The notes under the pieces were generated by a model, which worked only from the letters and a program-made list of their open reading frames with translations, searched no databases and was not told the origin of the DNA. Positions 2,661 to 37,936 of a DNA stretch of 39,096 nucleotides are shown piece after piece. The DNA is from a virus. Both the position numbers and the translations under genes were made by a program. The stretch lies in IMG/VR virus record IMGVR_UViG_3300043436_002609, positions 1 to 39,096 of that record; one strand, written 5' to 3'. The first letter of the stretch is position 1, and every line of letters starts with the position of its first letter.

Positions 2661-3428
2661 ATGGAAATGAAACAGAAAAATAAGAATAAATTTATAATGG
2701 ACACCGATTGGTTATTTGACGGCATTTTAGACGCTGAACAAAAACAATATGTATTATTAGATTACTTCCAAAAGATGAACAAACATCTTGAAAGGATGGA
2801 GGTCTACCCAATGTTTATTGAGCTTTCATTACACTTGGGTAATATACAAACCTTACTAACGCAAAACAAAATTTTATATGTTGATAAAAAATTAACATCA
2901 AATGATGATGAACTAGTATTGTCTGATTTAAAGGTTAAAGATATTCCTGTTCTTGACGATGAGGAAATTATTGAATATCAAAAAATATTAAAAAATAGTC
3001 AACCACAACTACATGACTATTTTAATTTTGCAAAATCAATATGGAGTATTGTTTATGATTCTATTGATGTTGTTGTAAAGAAAAACAAAAATAATTTACA
3101 AAATAAATCAGGTTTTTTTTACTTTAAATTACCTGAAGAAATGTTTATATGGCAATATACCACAAGAAAGGTGTATAAGACCAAAAATCAAACAAAAACA
3201 TCTTTAAAATTAATTTTCAAAGGACAACAGGGTAGTTTGACTATTCCGGAAATTATCTCTACATTTTCAAAAACATACGAAAAAAATAACGAAATGGATT
3301 ATCCAATATTTGAAGTTTTTTGTAGTGACATCTTTCCGTTAAAGGAAACATTAGTTCCAATTTTTAAAAGAAAAATATTATCATATATTAATCAAAATGT
3401 CAAAATAACAAGAAAACTATTATCATAA
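2661..3428 (+). CDS. Unknown 255-residue protein
   Basis: First gene of a tightly coupled plus-strand run (2661-5408). It is a soluble helical protein with a Lys-rich C terminus and no motif that I recognise. Met13 (MDTDWLFDG) is an alternative start, because the first twelve residues are a Lys/Asn-rich low-complexity stretch. TATATTTT lies 13 bases upstream of the annotated ATG, without a clear upstream TTG partner. Its stop codon overlaps the next start (TAATG). Confidence 0.75.
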   Translation: MEMKQKNKNKFIMDTDWLFDGILDAEQKQYVLLDYFQKMNKHLERMEVYPMFIELSLHLGNIQTLLTQNKILYVDKKLTSNDDELVLSDLKVKDIPVLDDEEIIEYQKILKNSQPQLHDYFNFAKSIWSIVYDSIDVVVKKNKNNLQNKSGFFYFKLPEEMFIWQYTTRKVYKTKNQTKTSLKLIFKGQQGSLTIPEIISTFSKTYEKNNEMDYPIFEVFCSDIFPLKETLVPIFKRKILSYINQNVKITRKLLS

Positions 3429-5806: not shown

Positions 5807-7213
5807 ATGAAAAAACTTATAAAAGAAAGTGGTTTAAGAGATATTAATGCTCTTGCTAAACGATACCCCAAAGCTGAAATATATTTTCATCAAGATTTGG
5901 ATGGGGTAACGACGGCAATTGCTATGAAACAATATCTTGAGAACAACGGTATTAAAGTGGTGGATGCTCATATTATTCAATATGGCGATAAAGAGTTTGC
6001 TGTAAAGAAGAATGACGCAACCGGTGATGTTATGCCAGTATTGGTAGATTTTGCTCACGGAAAACCAATGTTTGTGATTCATACGGACCACCACGATAGA
6101 CAAGCGGGAGCTGAAGAAACTAAATCCACATCATTTAGAAGTTCTCGTTCAAATGTTGAAACAATATCTCAAGTAGTTTCTCCAAAAGAATTATTCCCGT
6201 CTTCAGATATATTACTTATTTCAACAGTGGATTCTGCAAATTATGCGGTTAATGAAATTTCAGTAGACCAAGTAATTTCTTATTTATTTAAATTGGATAA
6301 GGACAAATCGTTAGAGAAAAATAAAATGTTAATGGGGTTAGTTGCAAACAAACTATTATTAGCATTTAAAAATAAGCCAGGGTTCTTAGAAACGTTGGTT
6401 ATGGAATGTACGCCATCATTATTAAATATCCTTCAAACTATTAAACGAATAATGGTTGAAAAGGGATATGCTAAACCGGAAGAGCTTGAAAAAAATAAAG
6501 AAGATTACGTTAAATCAATGCAAACAAATCCTAATGTTAAGGTATTAGGTAATGTTATTGTTCAATACGGAGGTGGTTCAATGTTTAAACCCGGTTCATA
6601 CGATAGATATACACCATTTAAAAACAATCCTGACGCTGATTTTATTGTAATTGCTTGGCCTTTAGGTTTAGTTCAAGCGTCTTGTAACCCATTTAAAGGT
6701 GAACGTCAATTGAAAGGTGTTAACTTAGGTGAGATTGCTCAAGAAGTATTATCAAAATGGGAAGACCAATTAAAACAAAGAGAAATATCCCTTTCAACAA
6801 TTAAGTGGATATCGGAATCTTCAAAAGATTTTAACCCTGAATCAACAGGATTTACATTTAAAGACTTTGTTGCGTTATATGGTAAAGATTTCAAAACTAT
6901 GGATAATGGTAGAGAAAAACTAACACATATTGGTGAGATGATGGAAAAACCATTTTCTGAATTGCCAGAAGAACATAGACAAATGTTAGATGATATTAAG
7001 GTAAACGCTTGGGATTTCATTCAAGCAAATAGTGGTGGACACAAATGTATTACAAATATCTCAGGATTAAACTTTATGGGTAGAAGTACTCGTCCACCAA
7101 AAGGAAGTGGTGGGTATAATAGAGAATCGGAAGATGCTCCTTATATTAAGTTTACAAAAATGATTCAGAATGAGTTTGTGAAATTGTTACAGGAAAAGAT
7201 AAATCAATCGTAA
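5807..7213 (+). CDS. DHH-family phosphoesterase with leader
   Basis: 468 residues. DHH motifs are visible: HQDLDG at 28-33, VDFAHG at 80-85 and HTDHHD at 92-97, which are the metal-binding residues of the RecJ / nanoRNase / PAP-phosphatase superfamily. Near the C terminus NSGGHKCITNISGLNF resembles the GGH motif of the DHHA1 substrate-binding domain. It therefore most likely hydrolyses phosphodiester bonds in a nucleic acid or dinucleotide; the exact substrate cannot be told. The N terminus MKKLIKESG fits the short leader (I-K-E at 5-7). It ends overlapping the convergent DUF192 gene by ten bases. Confidence 0.88.
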   Translation: MKKLIKESGLRDINALAKRYPKAEIYFHQDLDGVTTAIAMKQYLENNGIKVVDAHIIQYGDKEFAVKKNDATGDVMPVLVDFAHGKPMFVIHTDHHDRQAGAEETKSTSFRSSRSNVETISQVVSPKELFPSSDILLISTVDSANYAVNEISVDQVISYLFKLDKDKSLEKNKMLMGLVANKLLLAFKNKPGFLETLVMECTPSLLNILQTIKRIMVEKGYAKPEELEKNKEDYVKSMQTNPNVKVLGNVIVQYGGGSMFKPGSYDRYTPFKNNPDADFIVIAWPLGLVQASCNPFKGERQLKGVNLGEIAQEVLSKWEDQLKQREISLSTIKWISESSKDFNPESTGFTFKDFVALYGKDFKTMDNGREKLTHIGEMMEKPFSELPEEHRQMLDDIKVNAWDFIQANSGGHKCITNISGLNFMGRSTRPPKGSGGYNRESEDAPYIKFTKMIQNEFVKLLQEKINQS

Positions 7214-11113: not shown

Positions 11114-11572
11114 ATGGGAAACAATGTATTATTAGAAGTTAAGAAAAAAAACTTAATGAGAGAGCAAAAAGAAGAGGGTGAAATTGAGGTAGATGATACA
11201 AAAACCAATTCAGGGTTTAAAGATATGGTGTCTATTTTATTGCATTCACAAACTCAAGTACACATTTTTCATTTACAAACAAAATCATATTCAGAACATA
11301 AGGCTCTACAAGGGTATTATGAAGGGATTGATGCACTTATAGATGGTATTATTGAAAGTTATCAAGGTAAACACGATGTGATTACTGGATACAATTCAAT
11401 CAAAACTGAAGAGTATAAAAGTTCTGAACAAGTTATTAAGTACTTCAAATCATTGGATTCAATGGTTGAAAAAAACAGAAAAAGTGTGAAAGAATCATTT
11501 CTTCAAAATCAAATTGATACAGTTCAAGAATTAATATATTCCACATTATATAAATTAAGATTCTTAAAATAA
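11114..11572 (+). CDS. DUF5856-like helical (ferritin-like) phage protein with leader
   Basis: 152 residues. The core HSQTQVHIFHLQTKSYSEHKAL and GYYEGIDALIDGIIESYQGKHD is what I remember of the DUF5856 family of phage proteins, which has a four-helix, Dps/ferritin-like look with repeated His and Glu. Whether it binds metal cannot be told. The N terminus MGNNVLLEVKKK carries L-L-E at 6-8, the leader pattern, followed by a basic then acidic stretch. It precedes the MKELIRRILREE gene by four bases. Confidence 0.75.
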   Translation: MGNNVLLEVKKKNLMREQKEEGEIEVDDTKTNSGFKDMVSILLHSQTQVHIFHLQTKSYSEHKALQGYYEGIDALIDGIIESYQGKHDVITGYNSIKTEEYKSSEQVIKYFKSLDSMVEKNRKSVKESFLQNQIDTVQELIYSTLYKLRFLK

Positions 11573-11576
11573 TATA

Positions 11577-12497
11577 ATGAAAGAACTAATTAGACGTATA
11601 CTACGAGAAGAACAAGAAGGTCCTTTAACTAAAAAGGAAATTATGTTATTTAAGTATATTGACAAACATAAAAGGGAAACTAAGACTCAACCTGAATTTT
11701 TAAAATTTTTAAGGTCTATTTTACCGGTACTTGGAATGTCACCAAACGACTCTCATTTTTATTATGAAGTATACACGGCTAACTTCAGACCGGAAGGGGA
11801 TTATGAAAATTTAACAAACGAGAATTTCAAGGATTTCAGACAATTCAAACAGAGAAAAGTTACTAATAATACGGCTTATGAATATGCGTCGGCTAGAATG
11901 CCGTTTAAGGGTTCAAATATTGAAGGTCAGTGGAATGTAAATAATAATAATGATTGGTATTATGTTATTACATCATATGGGTGGTATCCAGTGTTCTTAT
12001 TTATTAATGACCAATGGTACAGAACATTAGAAACGTATTCAAGTTCTACAAGAAAACAAATGAGTCAGGTTAACCCTGTTAAATTTGATTCAAACTTAAA
12101 TGCAAATGTTATGAGTATTACCAAAGATGAGATGGAAGGTCTTATTCGAGGAAGTCGTAACATTGAAACGGTTAAATCTAGTAGAGTTTCAAACTTTGTA
12201 AAAGATAAAGATAAAATAACTAATCAATCAAAATTAATCAGTGGAGGTTGGGGGGATAATGCTCACAGAGTTAATTTTATGATTAAAGACATTGAGGATG
12301 TTGATGGTAAAATTAAAATATCTGTCAAAGTTCTTAAAGCTGGTAAAATGGTTGACAGGAAAATGATACCGGATTCCAATTTTAGAGACAATCCTGAGTT
12401 ATTGAACAATATTACAAATACAATTAAACAAGACATACTAAGAACTTATCCGAAATACTTAACGGATGATAACACTGAGATAGAATTATTAGATTAA
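11577..12497 (+). CDS. Leader-bearing unknown protein (MKELIRRILREE type)
   Basis: 306 residues. The N terminus is the class-B leader MKELIRRILREEQEG, nearly identical to those at 29272 (minus) and 32657; cleavage after L-R-E would remove 11 residues. The mature part is basic in its first third, has an aromatic segment (DWYYVITSYGWYPVFLFINDQW) near 125-145, and has a Lys/Asp-rich C-terminal half. No enzymatic motif is recognised. The three proteins that share the leader are otherwise unalike, which argues for a sorting signal rather than a domain. Confidence 0.82.
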   Translation: MKELIRRILREEQEGPLTKKEIMLFKYIDKHKRETKTQPEFLKFLRSILPVLGMSPNDSHFYYEVYTANFRPEGDYENLTNENFKDFRQFKQRKVTNNTAYEYASARMPFKGSNIEGQWNVNNNNDWYYVITSYGWYPVFLFINDQWYRTLETYSSSTRKQMSQVNPVKFDSNLNANVMSITKDEMEGLIRGSRNIETVKSSRVSNFVKDKDKITNQSKLISGGWGDNAHRVNFMIKDIEDVDGKIKISVKVLKAGKMVDRKMIPDSNFRDNPELLNNITNTIKQDILRTYPKYLTDDNTEIELLD

Positions 12498-14743: not shown

Positions 14744-15274
14744 ATGAAATTAATAATAACTGAATCTAAATACAAAAATATACTTTTTAAGTATTGGGAC
14801 AAAACAGCTGGTAAGGTAGATAAGAATTTCATTTCTTTTTTTGGGTTAGATAATAGTGATAGTGACATTACTTATAACCAAGCCTACAAATACTTAATTG
14901 AGTGGAGAGGTGAAAAAGAATCGAAAGAACTTGCTAAAACCTTATTACTTCAGAACCCACACCATATAGATAATTTTGGTGGTTATAATTTTTTCTTTGA
15001 GGTTATTGGTATTGGTAATTGGTATTTAGATAGCTCAGAACCAAATGTTGTTGTTAAAATTAAGGTTGATGATTTGGGTGGTCATGTTGATGTAGGTGGT
15101 GACCACAAGACATTAGAGGATGCTTTAGACAATGATGATTACGGATGGGAAGTTGAAGATGAAGTTAATTGGGGTATCAATGATTATTTTAAGGACAACA
15201 TTACATCACAGACAGGTATAAACATTATTTTTGACAGACCTAAATACTCTAGTCGATATTTCCAAATGAATTAA
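14744..15274 (+). CDS. Leader-bearing unknown protein (MKLIITE type)
   Basis: 176 residues. The leader MKLIITESKYKNILF has I-T-E at 5-7. Predicted mature part: a helical N-terminal half and an acidic C-terminal beta-rich half containing VKIKVDDLGGHVDVGGDHKTL. The domain is not recognised. Two bases separate it from the next gene, so the two are presumably co-transcribed. Confidence 0.78.
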   Translation: MKLIITESKYKNILFKYWDKTAGKVDKNFISFFGLDNSDSDITYNQAYKYLIEWRGEKESKELAKTLLLQNPHHIDNFGGYNFFFEVIGIGNWYLDSSEPNVVVKIKVDDLGGHVDVGGDHKTLEDALDNDDYGWEVEDEVNWGINDYFKDNITSQTGINIIFDRPKYSSRYFQMN

Positions 15275-15276
15275 TT

Positions 15277-16311
15277 ATGAATGAAAAATATTTAAAATAT
15301 GTTAATGATTTTAACGGTGGTGATATTGACCATCTTATTGATATGTTTGATAATGTGGGAAATATTTTAAAGTTTTTCCATAGACAAAATTTATTAGAAT
15401 ATGTCGACCCTTTTGATGATGATGTAAGTGATTATCAGTTAGAAATATTAAATTATCTTTTAAACGTTTTAAATGATAAAAAAACTTTAGAGTATTGTGT
15501 TGCTCAACTATCGGATATAATACCTAAAGATGGGGTTTATTATTTAAGAGTTCAAGATAGAGAGGACTTATCCGAATTATTTTATAGTGGTGGTCGTGAT
15601 TTAAGTGCGAGAGATTATGTTAAATCTATATTTGGTGAAGATAATTGGGAATATCATGACAATACTACCGATGATATACATAGAGATGTTATTGAAGAAT
15701 TGAACCCCGAGAACATGGAACGATTAAAACAACATATGTTAGATGTGTTAACTAATTGGAAAATAGAAGTTGATGATGAGACACCTGATTTATTTCGTAA
15801 TTATGCTGACGATGAGGGTATTTTTTATTTAACACCGGAGAATGTTAGTGATGTTATTGGTGATGAAGAATCTTTTCAATACTTGCTTGACAATGATTAT
15901 TTACCTGACTTAACAGGTGACTTATATAGTATTCATAGTAATGCTTATAATACTGCTCATGAAACAGAAATATATAATATGGCTATAGATGAGTTGGAAA
16001 CTTTTTTTGATATGAAATCAGCTAAGTGGGAGGCAGTTCCTTTGTATGGTGATTCTACCAAACTTACTGAGTTCTACTACATTAAATTTAATCCAAACGA
16101 AGTATCAAATTCTATTAAGAAATTTGTTGCGGACACTAGTAATTGGGGATATTATGCTAATAACATTGACTATGTTAGTACTTGGTTAAATATGATGAAT
16201 ACTTTTATGGATAATGGTGATGAGCCTTGGCTTGACTTTAGAATACCGGATTATCCTGATAGTCGTTTAGTAGATAAATATATAAATGAGTTTTTCCCTG
16301 ATTATATATAA
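15277..16311 (+). CDS. Large acidic protein of unknown function
   Basis: 344 residues with a marked excess of Asp and Glu and many Tyr. It has no leader, signal or membrane segment. Stretches such as YYLRVQDREDLSELFYSGGRD and WEAVPLYGDSTKLTEFYYIKF alternate helical and strand-like character. The Asp-rich composition resembles 1242-2612 and 23334-24938. It overlaps the next gene by one base (TAATG). Confidence 0.8.
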   Translation: MNEKYLKYVNDFNGGDIDHLIDMFDNVGNILKFFHRQNLLEYVDPFDDDVSDYQLEILNYLLNVLNDKKTLEYCVAQLSDIIPKDGVYYLRVQDREDLSELFYSGGRDLSARDYVKSIFGEDNWEYHDNTTDDIHRDVIEELNPENMERLKQHMLDVLTNWKIEVDDETPDLFRNYADDEGIFYLTPENVSDVIGDEESFQYLLDNDYLPDLTGDLYSIHSNAYNTAHETEIYNMAIDELETFFDMKSAKWEAVPLYGDSTKLTEFYYIKFNPNEVSNSIKKFVADTSNWGYYANNIDYVSTWLNMMNTFMDNGDEPWLDFRIPDYPDSRLVDKYINEFFPDYI

Positions 16312-23333: not shown

Positions 23334-24938
23334 ATGAAATTAATTGAGAGTATAAGACAAATCATTACGGAGGCATCCAAGAAACAAATCTTAATGGATA
23401 AGATTGGGTTTAATGAGGAGAATGCTGACCTATTGGATAAACTATGTGGTCCTTTATCTGTTTGGATGGGTAATAAATTTATTGATTTTTATTCTAAACG
23501 TTTAGTATCAATCCTTCCGGAATTTGACGATGATAAAGAATATAAAAGAGCTACGATTAAAAATATGAACAATAATTTAGCTATTAATTCACATAGACAA
23601 GATATTACATCAATAATGGATTGGATTAGAGTTGGTTTGAATGGTAATTTAGGTGAAAATAAAGAGTTAAATTTGAATGAATTACATCGTAAATCAAAAC
23701 AATGGCACGATAGTTTGGAAATTGGTCAGGGTGATATTAATTATAAGGAAGAAAACCCAACTATATTAGATTTCACTGATGAAAATGGAAATGGGTTTTA
23801 TTGGGCTGATTTGAATACAAAAAACTCATCAGAAGAATGTAATAGAATGGGGCATTGTGGAAGAAGTTCTTATGGATATCTTTATTCATTAAGACAAGTA
23901 ATTCCGATTAACAACAAATATAAATTAAACAAATCAGTTCTAACTGCGGCAATTGGTGAGGATGGTATTATGTATCAGTTGAAGGGTGTTAAGAACTCAA
24001 AACCAAAAGATGAATACCATCAATACATTCAACCGTTATTCTACGTGTTAGGTGGTGAAGGTGAAGAAGATGATTATTTAATTCAAGGATTTGGAACGGA
24101 GTACGCATCAGAACAGGATTTTAAATTGTCTGACTTACCGGAACAAACAATCAAAGAATTGTATCAAAATAGACCGGAGTTGTTCTCGTCAAGACCTATG
24201 CAACGATTGTTAGATAAGATGGGTATTATTGAAATGGAACCATTACCAACAGGATTCTCATTAGAAATTAAACCTGAGGATTTTGATGATTATGTTGATG
24301 GATGTACCTATCGTACTTATACTAATAGAACAACCGGAAAACAAACAAGAACAAGTATTTTTGTTGAAATAATGGCTGGTGATGCTTGGGATTTGTGGAA
24401 TCAAGACGGTTACGAAGATTTTGGTAGTTATTTCCAATATACAGTAGACAAACCAACCGAAGAAAGATTGTGGGATATTGTTAGAAAAATGGCAGAAAGA
24501 GATGGTGTTGAATTAGATGAGGATTTAGATTTAGAAGATTCTATCAAACAAGTGGATGATGATTGGGAAATAAGAAATGCTATTGGTGGTGCGATAAATG
24601 ATGCTGACGCAAATGATTATGTAGATTTTCTACAGAAAGAAATTGAGTCGGCGTTAGAGTTTTATGGTAATGTATATGAATTTAATGACACCGGAGCCAA
24701 AATTCAAGTCGATTTAGCTAATTTAGTTGATATTGATGAAGGTTGGGTTGATGAAATATTTGAAAATCATATGAATAGGGATGGTAAGTATGATTTAGAA
24801 GGAATATTTAATGAATTATTATCTGAAAGTCATATTGATAAACCTGACTTTGACCCCGATGACAGATGGTATCCATCACCTGATGATAGTGTTGTAAATG
24901 AAAATGTTAATTATAGATTAGATGATATAAGTATATGA
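23334..24938 (+). CDS. PcfJ-like protein with leader
   Basis: 534 residues from the ATG at 23334; an upstream in-frame ATG at 23244 would lie before the terminator and is rejected. The leader is MKLIESIRQIITEAS (I-T-E at 11-13). The region around CNRMGHCGR (169-177), YSLR (184-187) and QLKGVKNSKP (215-224) follows the PcfJ pattern (HC-V ... iySlR ... Q-kG--N--P). PcfJ is known from conjugative plasmids and phages, without an established activity. The C-terminal 250 residues are acidic and unrecognised. It is coupled to the glycosyltransferase gene by ATGA. Confidence 0.75.
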   Translation: MKLIESIRQIITEASKKQILMDKIGFNEENADLLDKLCGPLSVWMGNKFIDFYSKRLVSILPEFDDDKEYKRATIKNMNNNLAINSHRQDITSIMDWIRVGLNGNLGENKELNLNELHRKSKQWHDSLEIGQGDINYKEENPTILDFTDENGNGFYWADLNTKNSSEECNRMGHCGRSSYGYLYSLRQVIPINNKYKLNKSVLTAAIGEDGIMYQLKGVKNSKPKDEYHQYIQPLFYVLGGEGEEDDYLIQGFGTEYASEQDFKLSDLPEQTIKELYQNRPELFSSRPMQRLLDKMGIIEMEPLPTGFSLEIKPEDFDDYVDGCTYRTYTNRTTGKQTRTSIFVEIMAGDAWDLWNQDGYEDFGSYFQYTVDKPTEERLWDIVRKMAERDGVELDEDLDLEDSIKQVDDDWEIRNAIGGAINDADANDYVDFLQKEIESALEFYGNVYEFNDTGAKIQVDLANLVDIDEGWVDEIFENHMNRDGKYDLEGIFNELLSESHIDKPDFDPDDRWYPSPDDSVVNENVNYRLDDISI

Positions 24939-28760: not shown

Positions 28761-28788
28761 AAAAAAGGTTCCTTCGGGGACCTTTTTT
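28761..28788. terminator. Bidirectional terminator with UUCG tetraloop
   Basis: A6GGTTCC (28761-28772), TTCG loop, GGGACCT6 (28777-28788). T runs on both strands. It touches the stop codon of the convergent gene at 28787. Confidence 0.88.
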
Positions 28789-29272
28789 AATTATATATGT
28801 TTCTTGTTGATATGTCACCGTACCTATCCACTATTATTGTTGGAGATTCATTAACTCTAAATTTTAGATGGTTGGGATGTCTGATTGATGTGTTAATTAT
28901 TATTTTAATCCTATTATTTGTTCCATTTAACCACATGTGGTAATCAATTCCTGCTATATTATCGATAACATTAATTGAACATCTTGTAATACATGTTTCC
29001 ATTACTCTTTTAGCTGAACTGATTATTGCCGGTTCAATATCCATTATTGAATCGTTAATCTCATCTGGGTCAACTCTTTGAAATGAGGTTTTATTTCCTA
29101 TGAATTCCTGAGAATGTGGGTTTTTATATAAATTAATTAAATTGTCGTTATTTCTATATATTTGTCTAATAAACTCTTGTTCACTTAAAATATCGTTTAC
29201 AACAATTTCGTATACTAAAATAGGTTTTGGTTCTGTATATTCTCTTAATATCCGTCTAATTAATTCTTTCAT
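28787..29272 (-). CDS. Leader-bearing unknown protein (MKELIRRILRE type)
   Basis: 161 residues. The leader MKELIRRILREYTEP matches that at 11577 for the first 11 residues, though the codons differ, so selection acts on the peptide. The mature part is a soluble alpha/beta protein with GIDYHMWLNGTNNRIKIIINTS and a short C-terminal strand. The domain is not recognised. A TATTTATA element is located nine bases upstream. Confidence 0.8.
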   Translation of the reverse strand: MKELIRRILREYTEPKPILVYEIVVNDILSEQEFIRQIYRNNDNLINLYKNPHSQEFIGNKTSFQRVDPDEINDSIMDIEPAIISSAKRVMETCITRCSINVIDNIAGIDYHMWLNGTNNRIKIIINTSIRHPNHLKFRVNESPTIIVDRYGDISTRNIYN

Positions 29273-29601: not shown

Positions 29602-29976
29602 ATGGAAATTAAAATTAGTGAAGAGAAATTAGAAAAAATAATTGATACCATAGTTAATAGTATTGGTGTGGATAGTAGAGATTCGTTTCAAACAAGAAGT
29701 ATTAATTTACGTTATGTGGAATTTCTGACTCCGGGAAATAGACGTGATGTTATTTCAAGATATTACCCTGACATAAATAGAGTTGTGGTGAATGATGAAA
29801 AGTTTTATGATTTGGTTAGTGTATGGGTTAGTTCATATAAATTATATGATATAATTAAAGATGAAATTATTAAAAGAATATATAAAAAATTCACTAAAAG
29901 ATTTAAGAGTGTAATATATCCTGACGAAATCCGGGACATGAAGTATGTTAGTAATACTGACTTCAATAAAAAGTAA
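29602..29976 (+). CDS. Leader-bearing unknown protein (MEIKISE type)
   Basis: 124 residues. MEIKISEEKLEKII has I-S-E at 5-7. The mature part has a basic alpha-helical C terminus (DIIKDEIIKRIYKKFTKRFK) and a central strand region. The domain is not recognised. Monocistronic: a terminator on each side. Confidence 0.75.
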   Translation: MEIKISEEKLEKIIDTIVNSIGVDSRDSFQTRSINLRYVEFLTPGNRRDVISRYYPDINRVVVNDEKFYDLVSVWVSSYKLYDIIKDEIIKRIYKKFTKRFKSVIYPDEIRDMKYVSNTDFNKK

Positions 29977-32325: not shown

Positions 32326-32655
32326 ATGAAGATTTTGATAATAGAAAGCCGAAGAGACCAATTAGCTAAAAAAGAATTAGATAAAGCCTTCTCTAATATG
32401 TATGAAGATGTTAGTTATATGACAGATAGTGTTGGAGAACAAAAAAAAATCGAATTTCGTAATGGTGATGGTGTTATTATGCTTTATGGTGATAGAAATA
32501 AAACGTTATATATTTGTGAAGATGTGGTAAAACCAATTACATATTTTAGTTATACTCCACCTGAAGTAAAAAGGTTAGTTGGTAAATGGTTCTCGGAGTT
32601 TTTTGAGTTACCGGTTGAAAAAGTTCATCACGTAAATAAACATATATTAAACTAA
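32326..32655 (+). CDS. Leader protein, paralogue of 34552-34887
   Basis: 109 residues from the ATG at 32326. The leader MKILIIESRRDQL has I-I-E at 5-7. The body aligns by eye with the protein at 34552: FRNGDGVIMLYG, then TLYICEDVVKPITYFSY, then EVKRLVGKWFSEFFELPVEKV, against FKDSDGKIILKW, GLYVYRDFWLPLSVFSF and ELQRVIFWWFKDRIRLEPEEV. The family is unknown. First gene of an operon of leader proteins. Confidence 0.78.
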   Translation: MKILIIESRRDQLAKKELDKAFSNMYEDVSYMTDSVGEQKKIEFRNGDGVIMLYGDRNKTLYICEDVVKPITYFSYTPPEVKRLVGKWFSEFFELPVEKVHHVNKHILN

Positions 32656-32656
32656 T

Positions 32657-33250
32657 ATGAAAAATTTAATTAGAAAAATATTACGAGAGGAAGTTCAGAA
32701 GAGATTTACAAAATCTAATCCGAACTTTGAACGTATTATTATTAAACATATGGAGAGTATAATCTCCAATTCAAAAAGAATTATTCCACCACCTGAAGAT
32801 AACTATGGTATCTTTATTGAAGAGTGGTGTAAAGGTGGTAAGAAAGTTATTGAAGCCAGATATCATATTGATGATGAAACTGATGAATTTTTCACAGGTG
32901 ATTTGTATGTTGATGCGGAGGAGATTGAGTTTTTATCCAAAATGTTACAGGTTAGAAAGACATTTATTTATAATGTGATAACCGAATGGTATGATGATAG
33001 ATACACACCCAAATTTGGACAAGAGACCGGTCATCCGGAATTTGAAATTTATGAAACTTTGGAAACTGATGACCCTCGTAAATGTTATGAGATGGTTGAT
33101 ACTGATAAGTTGAGTAGAGAATATATGATTGATTATTTAGATACTCAAACATTAAAAAGAAGAAGTGAATTGGAAGAATTACCTGATGATAAACTAAAAT
33201 CTGACTACAGAAGTGTTTATAACGCACGATTGAATAATATAGGTACATAA
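32657..33250 (+). CDS. Leader-bearing unknown protein (MKNLIRKILREE type)
   Basis: 197 residues. The class-B leader MKNLIRKILREEVQK is followed by a short basic stretch, then an acidic beta/helical body with YHIDDETDEFFTGDLYVDAEE and a helical C terminus. No enzymatic motif is recognised. Overlaps the next gene by one base (TAATG). Confidence 0.8.
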   Translation: MKNLIRKILREEVQKRFTKSNPNFERIIIKHMESIISNSKRIIPPPEDNYGIFIEEWCKGGKKVIEARYHIDDETDEFFTGDLYVDAEEIEFLSKMLQVRKTFIYNVITEWYDDRYTPKFGQETGHPEFEIYETLETDDPRKCYEMVDTDKLSREYMIDYLDTQTLKRRSELEELPDDKLKSDYRSVYNARLNNIGT

Positions 33251-33558
33251 TGAAAGTAATAATCACAGAAAATAGGTTAAATAGTTCAATTGAGAAATAT
33301 ATTCTTAAAGGATATCCTATGGTTAAAAGGGTGTTTTTTACAACAAAGTTAATTCGTTTAGCCGGTGAACCAAATGAAAAAGGTGAGAATGATATTGTTA
33401 GAAATATACTAAACATTGACTTCATTGATGGTAAGATGACACATAGTCCAAGTTATATGGCTAGACAAATAAGAAATGATATTAATTCAATGTTTGGTCT
33501 TTATATTAATACATATGGTGCAAGTTGGGGTATGGAAGTTAAAATGGTAAGGGACTAA
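33250..33558 (+). CDS. Leader-bearing unknown protein (MKVIITE type)
   Basis: 102 residues; the leader MKVIITENRLNSSIEKYI has I-T-E at 5-7. The body is basic in its first half and then has FIDGKMTHSPSYMARQIRNDINSMFGLYI. No domain recognised. Coupled by TAATG at both ends. Confidence 0.75.
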   Translation: MKVIITENRLNSSIEKYILKGYPMVKRVFFTTKLIRLAGEPNEKGENDIVRNILNIDFIDGKMTHSPSYMARQIRNDINSMFGLYINTYGASWGMEVKMVRD

Positions 33559-34169
33559 TGAAAGTAATTATAACAGAAACACAATATAGAAAACTACAAG
33601 AACAACGAGTGAAGGGGGAAGAGATTACTCCCGGAAGATTTATTGTTCATTCATCAAATCCATCAAATAGAGATAATATTTCAACTACAGGTCTTCAGGT
33701 ATCTTTGGGGGAATGTTATTTGATTTATGCCGATAGTAATTATGGTGAAGATGAAGAATGTATTCCTGCTGTGTTTGCAACAGATAGTTTAAAGAAGAAA
33801 GATATGTTTGATTCAACTTATGATGATGACATATGGGTGATTGATACTGAAAGAGCTGGTGTGCAATGGTATAAAGACGCTCATTTTGAGGGTGGTGATA
33901 CTAAACATATCGTTACCTTTGGGGATATTCCGGCGAATGCCGTTAGATTAATATACAAAGGAACAGGTGGTGATACTTGGAATCATCATGATGAAGAAGA
34001 ATTAACATTAAGTGAAATGATTAAGTTAGATATTAAAGTTGGTGATACTCTAATGGGGGGTAAATTTAAAAACAAAAAAGTTATTGTTAAGACAATAGAA
34101 AAAAATGATAAAGGTGACATCACAATTAATGGTAAACCATTATTGAGATTTAGAATTATAAAAGAATGA
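33558..34169 (+). CDS. Putative ADP-ribosyltransferase-like protein with leader
   Basis: 203 residues. The leader MKVIITETQYRKLQEQ matches the T4-type pattern. The body contains FIVHSSNPSNRDNISTTGL (28-46), AVFATD (71-76), DIWVIDTERAGVQWYKD (91-107) and VTFGDIPANAVRLIY (119-133). A His-Ser near the first strand, a Gly-Leu after a helix, and a W-x-ID ... W segment followed by a final strand are the layout of small ADP-ribosyltransferase or RNA 2'-phosphotransferase-like domains in phages. The catalytic residues cannot be confirmed by eye. If correct it parallels Alt, the T4 internal-head ADP-ribosyltransferase. Confidence 0.6.
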   Translation: MKVIITETQYRKLQEQRVKGEEITPGRFIVHSSNPSNRDNISTTGLQVSLGECYLIYADSNYGEDEECIPAVFATDSLKKKDMFDSTYDDDIWVIDTERAGVQWYKDAHFEGGDTKHIVTFGDIPANAVRLIYKGTGGDTWNHHDEEELTLSEMIKLDIKVGDTLMGGKFKNKKVIVKTIEKNDKGDITINGKPLLRFRIIKE

Positions 34170-34555
34170 AAGTAATTATATCAGAAAATAAAGTTAATCA
34201 GATTATACGTAAGTATTTAGACAAAGAATTTTATCCGGATTATGGGTGGAATGAAAATACAAGACACGGTTCATATCAAAGAGATGTTGATAAGTGGGGT
34301 GATATTGTTTTCTTTATAGATGATGCTGATAGCTACATTTACTATGGGTGTAACGCAAATGCTGGTCCGGAAGATGAATTCTTTGCTGGTTATGGTCACT
34401 TACATAATTATAAATGTCCTTTACTATCTATATATCCGAGAGTTGGTCAAGAACTAACATCTTTATTTGGTGATAGATGGTTACCGGTATTTAAGGAATG
34501 GTTTGAAGAAAACACAGGATTAAATGTTGCTCAAATAACTAATGATTATATATGA
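34166..34555 (+). CDS. Leader-bearing unknown protein (MKVIISE type)
   Basis: 129 residues; the leader MKVIISENKVNQIIRKYLD has I-S-E at 5-7. The C-terminal part (CPLLSIYPRVGQELTSLFG ... FKEWFEENTGLNVAQI) has the same order of strand, helix and WF-containing helix as 32326 and 34552, so it may be a distant relative. Overlaps both neighbours by four bases (ATGA). Confidence 0.75.
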   Translation: MKVIISENKVNQIIRKYLDKEFYPDYGWNENTRHGSYQRDVDKWGDIVFFIDDADSYIYYGCNANAGPEDEFFAGYGHLHNYKCPLLSIYPRVGQELTSLFGDRWLPVFKEWFEENTGLNVAQITNDYI

Positions 34556-34887
34556 GAGTACTTCTTACAGAAGATAAAAGAAGACAATTATCCTATAAGG
34601 TATTAGATAATGTCTTGAGTAAATTAACACGTGAAGATAAAGATATGAATGTAAATTCAGTGTTTAGTAATCACCGAGTGTTATTCAAAGATAGTGATGG
34701 TAAAATTATATTGAAATGGTTAGAGAATAATGGGGGATTATATGTTTATAGGGATTTTTGGTTACCTCTATCGGTTTTCTCATTTGGTGAGGAAGAACTA
34801 CAAAGAGTTATTTTTTGGTGGTTTAAAGATAGAATAAGGTTAGAACCCGAAGAAGTATATTTGATGGGGTATCACAATGAGGATTAA
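34552..34887 (+). CDS. Leader protein, paralogue of 32326-32655
   Basis: 111 residues; the leader MRVLLTEDKRRQL has L-T-E at 5-7. The body is paralogous to 32326-32655 (see that entry), including the acidic-Gly-Lys strand, the PLSVFSF turn and the WWF helix. It is the last gene of the operon. Its stop codon lies in the left arm of a 14-base perfect inverted repeat, which may end the transcript. Confidence 0.78.
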   Translation: MRVLLTEDKRRQLSYKVLDNVLSKLTREDKDMNVNSVFSNHRVLFKDSDGKIILKWLENNGGLYVYRDFWLPLSVFSFGEEELQRVIFWWFKDRIRLEPEEVYLMGYHNED

Positions 34888-35507: not shown

Positions 35508-35515
35508 TATTTATC
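35508..35515 (+). promoter_or_regulatory. TATTTATC element (proximal)
   Basis: ATTATATTTATCATTATG, three bases before the ATG at 35519. With the distal copy this is the only operon here with two elements in tandem. Confidence 0.45.
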
Positions 35516-35518
35516 ATT

Positions 35519-36292
35519 ATGAATTTAAACGAAGATATACAAAGAATAAGAGAGATTATGATTTCCGAAGAGATGGTTCAGTCCGATGCTTGGAAATCAA
35601 TTAAGAATACTTTAGATATTCTTAAAAAGAAAAAGAAAGTATTACTACTTAGTTGTTCCAATAGATATAATTGGGATGATAAAAACATAGACATTCCAAA
35701 GTCAAAAATGATTGCGATGTACCTGAACGATGAGTTGGGTGATAAGTCAGTTCTAATAGATGTTTCGGAACTTAATATTGTTTCTTGTGAGGGAAATGTA
35801 TCGAGAAAGGATGGTAACTCTTGTGGATTACTGAAAGCGATGCTCAAAGATAAGAAAAAGAATCCATCGGGAGACCATAGATGTTGGGCAAGTTATAACA
35901 ACCCAAAGGATGAGTTATGGAAGATTTCCAAAGAGTTGTTTGAATCTGACGCTGTTATATTCTTTAGTTCGGTAAGGTGGGGACAAACAAATATGTTTTA
36001 TCAGAACTTAATTGAGAGACTGACTTGGATTGAGAATAGACACGCAACATTGGGGGAATCAAATCTTGTAAAAGATATTGAGACCGGTTTCATTTGTGTT
36101 GGGCAGAATTGGAACGGGGAGACAGTAAGTGAAACACAGAAGGAAGTACATGGATTCTACGGATTCAAACCAAACGATGATTTATATTGGAATTGGCAGT
36201 ACACCAAGAAAGTGACTGACGAGACTCAAAAATCGTATAAAGATTCGCACAAGAAGTTTATTAAAGATACTAAATTACCGGACTTCAAATAA
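35519..36292 (+). CDS. Flavodoxin/FMN-reductase-fold protein with leader
   Basis: 257 residues. The class-C leader MNLNEDIQRIREIMISEE has I-S-E at 15-17. The body begins with a strand and phosphate-binding-like loop (VLLLSCSNRYNW, 41-52), has SDAVIFFSSVRWGQTNMFYQNLIERLTW (143-170), the usual flavin-loop and helix signature of NADPH-dependent FMN reductases, and then GFICVGQNWNGET (190-202). It likely binds flavin and may carry out redox chemistry; an inactive structural use of the fold is possible. First of four genes with the same leader. Confidence 0.8.
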   Translation: MNLNEDIQRIREIMISEEMVQSDAWKSIKNTLDILKKKKKVLLLSCSNRYNWDDKNIDIPKSKMIAMYLNDELGDKSVLIDVSELNIVSCEGNVSRKDGNSCGLLKAMLKDKKKNPSGDHRCWASYNNPKDELWKISKELFESDAVIFFSSVRWGQTNMFYQNLIERLTWIENRHATLGESNLVKDIETGFICVGQNWNGETVSETQKEVHGFYGFKPNDDLYWNWQYTKKVTDETQKSYKDSHKKFIKDTKLPDFK

Positions 36293-36293
36293 T

Positions 36294-37052
36294 ATGAACT
36301 TACAAGAGAACATACATAGAATCCATCAGATGATGGGGGTAATCAATGAAGGGTTGCATGATACATCTTGGGAAAATGACGAGGGGGATAAAATCACCCT
36401 TATTGATTTATTAAACGCCACAGAAGATATTCCGGTGAGGAAAATATCTGTAGAAGAATTAAAGTCACACTTATTATCGTGGGATGGGGATGAAGATGAG
36501 GTTAGAAAGATAGAAAGCGCTGACTTACAATATCCAATATTAATCTTTGTTAATGATGATGGGGAGTTCATAACGATTATAGATGGGCACCACAGAGCAC
36601 AGAAAGCCGCAAGACAAGGATTAGAAACAATTAGAGCAAAAGTAATACCGATTAATTCCTTACCAAAACATATTAAACAAGTGTTTAAACATATGATGAG
36701 CGAGGGTAAAGACGCTTATGTTTCAAGAGCTTCTTTTGACCAAGAGTATGAAGATGAATATCCAAAGTGGGGGAAAACTATGGTTAAGTTTTTAGATATG
36801 GCAATAAACGCGTATGATGAGAATGATAATGTAATTATATTGTTTAATGATAAAGACCTTAAAAAAACTTTAATGAGATACGATAAAAAGGACGAACAAA
36901 TATGGTGGGACTATTCATTACATGATGAGTTAGTTCAATTTGTTCCTTTTGGATATGTGTCAAGACATTACAGGTATGCGGTTCAGGACTACTTTAAGAA
37001 ACATTTCCCTGAATATGGGGTTAGACAAATAACCGGAGCAAATATTGGATAA
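36294..37052 (+). CDS. ParB/sulfiredoxin-fold protein with leader
   Basis: 252 residues. The leader MNLQENIHRIHQMMGVINEG has I-N-E at 17-19. Residues about 48-118 match the ParB-N/Srx fold: a strand-helix (VRKISVEELKSHLL), YPILIFVNDDGEFITIIDGHHR and AQKAARQGLETIRAKVI, with the diagnostic DGHHRAQKA at 97-105. This fold occurs in ParB CTPases, phage kinases and nucleases. The C-terminal part is acidic and unrecognised. Leader DNA is nearly identical to that at 37478. Overlaps the next gene by one base. Confidence 0.82.
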   Translation: MNLQENIHRIHQMMGVINEGLHDTSWENDEGDKITLIDLLNATEDIPVRKISVEELKSHLLSWDGDEDEVRKIESADLQYPILIFVNDDGEFITIIDGHHRAQKAARQGLETIRAKVIPINSLPKHIKQVFKHMMSEGKDAYVSRASFDQEYEDEYPKWGKTMVKFLDMAINAYDENDNVIILFNDKDLKKTLMRYDKKDEQIWWDYSLHDELVQFVPFGYVSRHYRYAVQDYFKKHFPEYGVRQITGANIG

Positions 37053-37474
37053 TGAACTTAATAGAAAACATACAAAGAATTAATACCTTAATCTCTGAAA
37101 ATGACAGGGATAAAGCCATCAGAAATATGATTGACAAGATGGGTGTTGCTGACGCCATTAAAATGACGGGGAATTACTATGTGATTGAGCCATACTTAAA
37201 GGAAATTGACAAAGTAAATTATATTAAAGAGAAAATTATAGAAATAAATGATGATGGTAGTGGTTTTGCTTTACACGAGATAAATGAAGAACCAATTCAT
37301 TTTAGTGAACAGGATGGTGAATTACGTCAAATAGAATATTTGGGTAAGAACCGAGCTATGGTAGATGTTTATGATGAGGATATGGGTACTCATTTAGGTG
37401 ATTATAATATTCCATATGAAAGTTTGCCGGGGCAAATACTTGATGAATTGGTTGAGATATTAATCAATAAGTAA
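37052..37474 (+). CDS. Leader protein, paralogue of 37478-37936
   Basis: 140 residues; the leader MNLIENIQRINTLISEND has I-S-E at 14-16. The body aligns with the next protein throughout: RNMIDKMGVADAIKMTGNY with KNMISKYGLYHTIKLMGGY, YIKEKIIE with FIRDAIKQ, DGELRQIEYLG with DDELQQIEYFN, and VDVYDED with IDVYDGE. It is therefore a tandem duplication. The family is otherwise unknown. Confidence 0.8.
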   Translation: MNLIENIQRINTLISENDRDKAIRNMIDKMGVADAIKMTGNYYVIEPYLKEIDKVNYIKEKIIEINDDGSGFALHEINEEPIHFSEQDGELRQIEYLGKNRAMVDVYDEDMGTHLGDYNIPYESLPGQILDELVEILINK

Positions 37475-37477
37475 GAT

Positions 37478-37936
37478 ATGAATTTACACGAGAACATACA
37501 TAGAATCCAATCATTACTAACGGAGAACCGGGAGGAAATGGTGAAGAATATGATATCCAAGTACGGGTTATATCATACCATTAAGTTAATGGGTGGATAT
37601 GAACCAATATTAAATATTCTTGGTCACAAATACTTTACCATTGATGATAAAATTAATTTCATTAGAGATGCAATAAAACAGTTAACAGAAAAATACAATT
37701 CAACCGGGATATCTACGTATGAATTAAATATGAATGCTATTCCATATGGTTCTCCTGATGATGAGTTACAACAAATTGAGTATTTCAATCCGGACTTTGT
37801 TACCATAGATGTTTATGATGGTGAAGAGTATGATAGACACAAAGGTAGTTTTACTGAACGATATACGGATTTAGATGATAATACATTAGATGAGATTTTC
37901 CTGTTTATGGTTGACGCATTAGAATACAATATGTAA
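37478..37936 (+). CDS. Leader protein, paralogue of 37052-37474
   Basis: 152 residues; the leader MNLHENIHRIQSLLTENRE has L-T-E at 14-16. Paralogous to the preceding gene, with a slightly longer centre (YFTIDDKINFIRDAIKQL) and C terminus. It is the last gene before a long non-coding region; no T-tract terminator is obvious after it. Confidence 0.8.
   Translation: MNLHENIHRIQSLLTENREEMVKNMISKYGLYHTIKLMGGYEPILNILGHKYFTIDDKINFIRDAIKQLTEKYNSTGISTYELNMNAIPYGSPDDELQQIEYFNPDFVTIDVYDGEEYDRHKGSFTERYTDLDDNTLDEIFLFMVDALEYNM

Follow-up and report, generated by a model that had tools for sequence, protein, structure and literature searches.

The stretch analysed here, referred to as the window, comprises all 39,096 bases (positions 1-39,096) of the IMG/VR virus record IMGVR_UViG_3300043436_002609, and our analysis concerns a cluster of four of its genes, the products of which begin with a similar short leader peptide. 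The four open reading frames (ORFs), at 35519-36292, 36294-37052, 37052-37474 and 37478-37936 (genes 1 to 4), lie almost head to tail on the plus strand and start with ATG. The common start of their products is MNLxE[N/D]IxRI, in agreement with a sequence-only reading of this DNA, according to which all four begin with MNLxENIxRI or a close variant. The same reading noticed about 18 identical bases in the leader DNA of genes 2 and 4, the bodies of which it considered unrelated. The identity extends in fact over 20 bases (GAGAACATACATAGAATCCA), and no similarity between the products of the two genes is detectable beyond the first 14 residues. Genes were called as greedy ATG ORFs, leader classes were defined by regular expressions, and non-redundancy was judged by 3-mer overlap; some of the records compared are near-duplicates.

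None of the four cluster proteins has a Pfam match above the cut-off. The flavodoxin-like character ascribed earlier to the product of gene 1 is borne out by the fold of its AlphaFold model and not by Pfam. Residues 37-256 of this model match ArsH, RosB, SP1951 and SsuE (VIA Z of about 12-12.8, with 12.8 to ArsH and RosB and 12.7 to SP1951), and its top 50 structural matches are flavodoxin-fold flavoproteins or proteins containing such a domain, the predicted local distance difference test (pLDDT) score of the model being moderate (71.7) and falling below 50 at residues 11-21. An alignment of 41 homologues locates invariant residues in candidate loops for flavin mononucleotide (FMN), the binding of which is a prediction only, and four invariant cysteines (C46, C90, C102 and C122) in the N-terminal half. 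This protein has 252 viral relatives, and none among 50,697 cultured-phage records or in the bacterial species genome collection. The product of gene 2 may well be ParB-like, as was read earlier: it matches phrog_17560 (1e-13, function unknown) and phrog_723 (ParB-like, 0.0016), ParB-like PHROGs spanning 0.0016-0.08, and tblastn relates it to phage genes annotated as ParB. Its relative in Pseudomonas phage EL, gp075, aligns to residues 30-121 and is leaderless. Genes 3 and 4 are indeed tandem paralogues, 34.7% identical across 147 aa with E of about 1e-24; despite a confident model, no match of their family with E < 0.001 was found in PDB, and we therefore assign no function to it.

The leader of the cluster genes, of 16-19 aa and denoted here leader C, was searched for in related genomes with a regular expression blind to the predicted cut site, which gave 152 proteins with 63 non-redundant cargos. 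In 60 of these 63 cargos a [ILMV]xE motif has its end between residues 12 and 24 (23.3 on average and at most 35 after shuffling), and the strict [IL]xE motif is present in 57 (17.1 by shuffle), while control motifs in which E was exchanged for D, Q, K, N, S or A gave 1-23 in the same test. Alignment of 61 unrelated leader C cargos yields the consensus MNLQENIxRIxxMMGxxxE, followed by next to nothing conserved: M1 and E5 are invariant, L3, I7, R9 and I10 are conserved in at least 90%, and of the later residues only the Glu enters the consensus. Among the 41 homologues of the flavodoxin-like protein, the leaders of which are variable, no column but E17 (the P1 Glu) is invariant within residues 1-34. 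IMG/VR was also scanned independently for the DNA pattern of MNLQENIxRI, which gave at least 120 stretches, at least 99 leader ORFs and at least 47 non-redundant cargos; among the matches listed, the relaxed motif is present in 46 of 47 non-redundant cargos (shuffle mean 16.6, maximum 27), and gp21 is encoded by 11 of 14 further large records reached via the leader alone.

The phage itself is, by its genes, a T4-type jumbo phage. From about base 3000 on, sampled stretches of the window are identical, in reverse orientation, to a genome of 318,164 bases (G001), which we read whole together with two sister jumbo genomes, G003 (322 kb) and G006 (292 kb). In 11 of 12 related jumbo records we found genes for both a prohead protease of the gp21 type (PF03420, E 1e-22 to 1e-26) and a major capsid protein of the gp23 type (PF07068, E about 1e-64). 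The gene order in G001 is portal, protease, acidic gp22-like scaffold candidate (assigned from position and composition alone) and capsid protein. The propeptide of the gp23 homologue ends with SFLINE↓ATSDGSSG at residue 60, ahead of the conserved domain (arrows mark predicted cuts), which agrees with the rule that T4 gp21 cleaves after L/I-X-E (PMC9026906). One gene of the head cluster near gp23 combines a single body with three short N-termini, ending with IKE↓A, INE↓S and LKE↓A (G001:36432-37421, G003:236712-237233 and G006:150229-150948, all on the minus strand). Among cultured phages, Microcystis phage Mel-JY01 and Flavobacterium phages immuto have the closest capsid proteins (about 40-43% identity). 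In Flavobacterium phage immuto, the closest annotated cultured relative examined, other phi-x-E starts are present, and leaders B (see below) and C were not found with the regular expressions. The capsid relationship and a TAnnTTTG-type upstream element suggest that the host probably belongs to Bacteroidota. ATCTTTG/TCTTTGT, enriched upstream of G001 and G003 genes, resembles the Bacteroidota -7 element TAnnTTTG and may mark probable early genes and hint at the host.

These results make it very probable that the common N-terminus is a removable capsid-targeting sequence (CTS) of the type present in T4 internal proteins. An interaction or localisation tag unrelated to the capsid, serving for instance the binding of a host factor or an assembly site, would make the phi-x-E motif coincidental. 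The evidence for packaging is indirect and 38% of other N-termini have the motif by the same count, which favours such a tag; nevertheless, we consider it unlikely, since the Glu is the most conserved residue after the leader core across the 63 unrelated cargos, with control residues falling short, and in the flavodoxin family the one leader residue that never varies, the gp23 homologue has the same motif, and the leader genes co-occur with gp21 homologues.

Leader genes and certain head genes share the upstream element TATTTAT, which in three genomes is enriched 12-17 times within 40 bases ahead of genes. It precedes the gp20-like genes (in two of the three genomes), as well as the gp21-like and gp22-like genes. 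When genes with an upstream gap of at least 20 nt are considered, TATTTAT is present before 29 of 31 leader genes vs. 227 of 595 others (Fisher p 4e-10), and the host-type element TAnnTTTG before only one of the 31. [IL]xE within the first 26 residues is commoner among genes preceded by TATTTAT (131/256) than among those without it (90/370), and thus more leaders are probably still unlisted. Because the element is present on only about half of the head-cluster genes (6/12, 6/13 and 5/8), we treat it as a putative late promoter. In the window it stands from a few to about 35 bases ahead of the ATG at about a dozen gene starts.

The position of TATTTAT directly before ATG could also mean that the similarity between the leader genes reflects a DNA-level element, a promoter or translation start region overlapping the start codon, and that the peptide is irrelevant. 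The 20 identical bases of the leaders of genes 2 and 4 and a joint duplication of promoter and leader in record L012 (see below) would fit this explanation. It is nonetheless very unlikely, as amino acids are kept between genomes while same-residue leader codons agree at a level near that expected from codon use (0.62 vs. 0.55), conservation runs to residues 16-20 with the length variation falling before the Glu, and six proteins contain the motif internally, four of them without Met. It appears to be the peptide rather than the DNA that is conserved in the leader.

The leader set of the window extends past the cluster (Table 1) and includes two further leader families, the ends of which are likewise phi-x-E. 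In the same genomes, leader B (MKxIITE↓[SNTE]) is present in 12 to 20 genes per genome and is accompanied by leader A (LI[RK]xILRE↓E) and leader D (MIKLTDLIxEIMLxE). Altogether 26 or 27 of the 344-411 genes called per genome fall into these leader classes by regular expressions, and a further class, F (MKKxIRLTESDL...), was seen. At 11114-11572 the window encodes a DUF5856 protein (Pfam E 8.8e-21) with the leader-like start MGNNVLLE↓V and TATTTAT in front.

Table 1. Leader genes, their parts and related features; coordinates refer to the window unless a record handle is given.
Feature	Coordinates	Strand	Remarks
TATTTAT promoter-like element	35508..35514	+	4 bases ahead of the ATG of the first leader gene
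Leader C, gene 1	35519..35569	+	MNLNEDIQRIREIMISE↓E, predicted propeptide, 17 aa
Flavodoxin-like (NAD(P)H:FMN-reductase fold) body, gene 1	35570..36292	+	predicted mature 240 aa, 28.0 kDa; AlphaFold pLDDT 71.7
Leader C, gene 2	36294..36350	+	MNLQENIHRIHQMMGVINE↓G
ParB-like domain, gene 2 (residues 30-128)	36381..36677	+	HHR box IIDGHHRAQKAA; phrog_17560 E 1e-13
C-terminal domain, gene 2	36735..37049	+	profile match to positions 148-253; relative L085:9565-9945 has leader B
Leader C, gene 3	37052..37099	+	MNLIENIQRINTLISE↓N
Body, gene 3, tandem paralogue of gene 4, fold unknown	37100..37474	+	34.7% identity to 37478, E 1e-24
Leader C, gene 4	37478..37525	+	MNLHENIHRIQSLLTE↓N; 20 bases same as in gene 2 leader DNA
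Body, gene 4	37526..37936	+	AlphaFold pLDDT 88.8; alignment A3 of the family includes a member with leader A
Four-gene tandem array, leader B	33250..34887	+	MKVIITE↓N, MKVIITE↓T, MKVIISE↓N, MRVLLTE↓D; just upstream of the cluster
Leader B gene	33558..34169	+	body family also with leader C and A/C hybrids in relatives
Leader A gene	32657..33250	+	MKNLIRKILRE↓E
Leader-like start	32326..32655	+	MKILIIE↓S directly after TATTTAT; true start probably 32326, not 32311
Leader-like start	29602..29976	+	MEIKISE↓E after TATTTAT
Leader A gene	28787..29272	-	MKELIRRILRE↓Y
Leader-like start	23334..24938	+	MKLIESIRQIITE↓A after TATTTAT
Leader B gene	14744..15274	+	MKLIITE↓S
Leader A gene	11577..12497	+	MKELIRRILRE↓E
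DHH-like phosphoesterase (weak Pfam match)	5807..7213	+	orthologues with five leaders, joined just ahead of the S/G-G-[IL]-R body start
Proteins with internal leader and phi-x-E site	L098:849-2111, L239:1921-2856(-), L245:4036-4950, L098:1-843, L206:5394-6227(-), L003:15422-16003		

The sequence-only reading proposed that the leader is swapped or copied onto new cargo by recombination and that the cluster is a site of cargo gain. Bodies provided with different leaders, joined at or near the cut site, were found in two gene families of the window. In the family of the gene at 33558, one body is associated with leader B (MKVIITETQYRKLQEQ), leader C (MNLQENIHRIKEVMGLSE) or A/C hybrids (MNLQETIRRILREE), with the same joining region. 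Orthologues of the DHH-like gene have five leaders in five genomes (MKKLIKE↓S, MKKLIIE↓S, MKMVITESQYKRLLNE↓S, MKNLIKSVLREESRRLISE↓S and MEKLIRRIVKEQTKSLLNE↓G) ahead of the same body start. Additionally, the C-terminal domain of the gene 2 product is found elsewhere behind leader B. Copying is seen in L012, where an identical block of 103 bp (15615-15717 and 16161-16263), consisting of 60 bp of upstream sequence with the promoter element and 43 nt of the leader, fronts two adjacent genes with unrelated bodies, while the flanking sequence differs on both sides; this is evidently a recent duplication of a promoter-leader cassette. For unrelated bodies, the agreement of leader codons is higher within genomes than between them (0.711 vs. 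0.622; 0 of 2000 label shuffles).

Such exchange is not free shuffling. On the tree of the flavodoxin-like proteins the leader type changes 6 times, compared with 17 times (minimum 14) when labels are shuffled, and thus inheritance of the leader with the body is the rule. The comparison of the locus across relatives shows in this way that leaders mostly follow their bodies, and also that the absence of any shuffling does not hold: shuffling, as judged from these genomes, is real but sporadic. As regards cargo gain, gene content downstream of the flavodoxin gene varies and includes many leader genes: at 70 loci, the five slots there hold 95 body families, and leader genes account for 71/345 vs. 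77/1138 genome-wide. Leader genes are scattered over the genome, however, and the cluster is therefore not a unique site of gain. Descent of the four genes from old paralogues, the bodies of which diverged past recognition while the N-terminus was kept without any leader exchange, would agree with the whole-length paralogy of genes 3 and 4 and with the tracking of the flavodoxin body phylogeny by leader type, but is extremely unlikely in view of the unrelated folds and families concerned (FMN-reductase fold, ParB-like, Acb1, pterin-4a dehydratase, GNAT, phosphatase and AAA), the replacement of leaders of different families on the same, homologous body, the recent L012 duplication and the leaderless ParB-like body in phage EL.

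Two body families deserve separate mention. The 33558 family, among the most leader-diverse ones, has invariant H, S, R and W residues (VHKSNP...R..I...G in alignment A5) and an unknown fold; the idea, formed by eye, that it comprises ADP-ribosyltransferases was dropped, as a PDB sequence search gave no match. Pterin-4a-carbinolamine dehydratase-like proteins (L003:8999-9400, L005:2219-2620 and, on the minus strand, G006:239298-239705) have three leader variants, joined directly ahead of the SK.W body start.

Other cargos of leader C in the related genomes include a pterin-4a dehydratase, GNAT, a dual-specificity phosphatase, DUF2237 and AAA/kinase proteins, and those of leader B a lysozyme with LysM, a sigma-70-like protein and a methyltransferase. 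A leader C protein encoded by G003:29610-30173 (L151:10613-11173, minus strand), and present also in G023, belongs to the Acb1 family, which acts against the cyclic oligonucleotide-based antiphage signalling system (CBASS). It scores above the family cut-off (PF23474, E 3.5e-7, 30.5 bits vs. 27) and, like Acb1, keeps both HxT motifs (HCT and HMT); it is a probable anti-immunity enzyme. The start of T4 57B, which we take to be Acb1, is without such a leader; 57B adjoins ipI.

Certain proteins contain leaders internally. Among 3523 proteins we counted 7 occurrences of the strict internal leader motif, 6 of them distinct, while shuffling gives a mean of 0.3 and a maximum of 2. Five of the six are directly followed by an intact ILREE/ILKEE site, and four are without a preceding Met, and internal translation start would therefore not account for them. 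This suggests that these proteins may be polyproteins derived from fused neighbouring tagged genes, with the prohead protease acting as a separator. In L093:15076-16083, a leader B start is accompanied by a second leader-like stretch (MKLNESKLYKILTE) just before a sigma-70 region 2/4 domain; this protein is possibly a packaged sigma factor.

The principle itself is already known from the internal proteins of T4. The T4 leader is a CTS, the first 10 residues of which suffice and which is removed by gp21 (PMC9026906). The bodies of ipII and ipIII are unrelated, and both genes start with MKTYQEFIAE↓A, identical at 30/30 nt. Ip1-3 of T4 are injected and inhibit type IV restriction enzymes (PMC12373910), and further injected proteins of T-even phages have been recognised by the common leader (PMC12373910; PMC9391042). 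In another giant phage, SPN3US, gp53 and gp54 share 15 identical N-terminal residues (PMC5694885). In the case of ipII and ipIII (L296, T4 65416-66415), the upstream stretch atattta.a..taaaggaaacat is also a near copy, besides the 30 leader bases.

As in T4 IPI, IPII, IPIII and Alt, a short N-terminal leader with an L/I-x-E end is placed on unrelated bodies, DNA-identical leaders stand on neighbouring genes, the head is of the gp22/gp23 type with a gp21 protease, and the accessory cargo is variable; the anti-defence roles are those of T4. Unlike T4, the present phages have the leader families MNLQENIxRIxxMMGxxE, MKxIITE, LIRxILREE and MIKLTDLIxEI, several of them side by side, about 25 leader genes in each genome where T4 has three, one body with several leaders, and internal leaders. 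Ejection proteins of phiKZ/SPN3US-type giant phages likewise have an N-terminal propeptide, removable there and predicted to be so here, and identical starts on diverged paralogues (PMC5694885). They differ in the protease motif (AXE/SXE), in propeptides often exceeding 100 residues and in phage group, while the present phages encode T4-type gp21, gp23 and gp22-like proteins. Moraphages, aquatic jumbo phages with predicted Bacteroidota hosts, similarly have T4-type prohead protease and capsid genes (PMC12619734), and internal proteins did not turn up when the text of that paper was searched. In the literature searched, with subscription journals outside its scope, we found no account of these leader families, of this many tagged genes per genome, of one body with several leaders or of internal leaders. 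What is new here is the scale (about 25 genes per genome), the several leader families, the Acb1-like cargo and the apparent polyproteins.

Sequence shows the family of leaders, the conservation of the cut motif, the genes for protease and capsid, the common promoter element, the swaps and the single cassette duplication; docking, cutting, packaging, injection and cargo function are what we infer from them. Leader genes would be transcribed from the TATTTAT promoter type of the gp20-, gp21- and gp22-like head genes, and the leader of 16-19 residues would dock the protein onto the assembling prohead core. The gp21-type protease would then cut after [I/L]-x-E, leaving the mature protein, of 14-28 kDa here, beside the DNA inside the head, to be injected at infection and to act early in the host. 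The cluster would supply four such cargos, namely an enzyme with the FMN-reductase fold, a ParB-like protein and the two paralogues without a known fold. Leaders, mostly inherited with their bodies, would now and then be replaced, or copied with the promoter, by recombination, which would let the phage enlarge its injected set by unrelated proteins. The predicted entry of leader proteins into the head is now much better supported, namely by the prohead protease, the scaffold candidate, the capsid genes, the conserved cut site and the common promoter element.

Several points weigh against this mechanism. No virion proteomics was found for these uncultured phages, and cutting and packaging are predictions. 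The leader families resemble the T4 CTS, by eye, in the general pattern only (M, polar, hydrophobic, then phi-x-E). The motif [IL]-x-E is short, and 38% of non-C genes have its relaxed form close to the N-terminus, although part of these may represent further leaders. TATTTAT leaves about half of the head cluster uncovered, and the DCoH-like and FMN-reductase-fold cargos have no obvious early role in the host cell. A junction test on all homologous pairs (179 vs. 126 sides) was swamped by non-leader proteins and left unused, and with one pair per cluster it gave 28 vs. 25 sides.

In T4, the few injected internal proteins of known function counter host restriction enzymes. The chances seem to us evenly poised that giant T4-type phages of aquatic, probably Bacteroidota, hosts possess a modular injection arsenal, in which several interchangeable capsid-targeting tags, copied as cassettes along with their promoter, are attached at the protease site to scores of unrelated effectors (anti-CBASS nuclease, sigma factor, lysozyme, phosphatase, acetyltransferase), some of them made as polyproteins with internal tags and separated in the head. 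Should the leader serve as a packaging tag in these phages as well, the 20 initial residues encoded by a gene would mark its product as injected. A large set of unannotated genes of uncultured giant phages (about 25 per genome and more than 100 cargo types) could in that case be searched for candidate early effectors and anti-defence proteins, the first candidates being the leader genes of the window and the tagged Acb1-like protein, and natural exchange of tags at the protease site would make the evolution of injected cargo directly testable.

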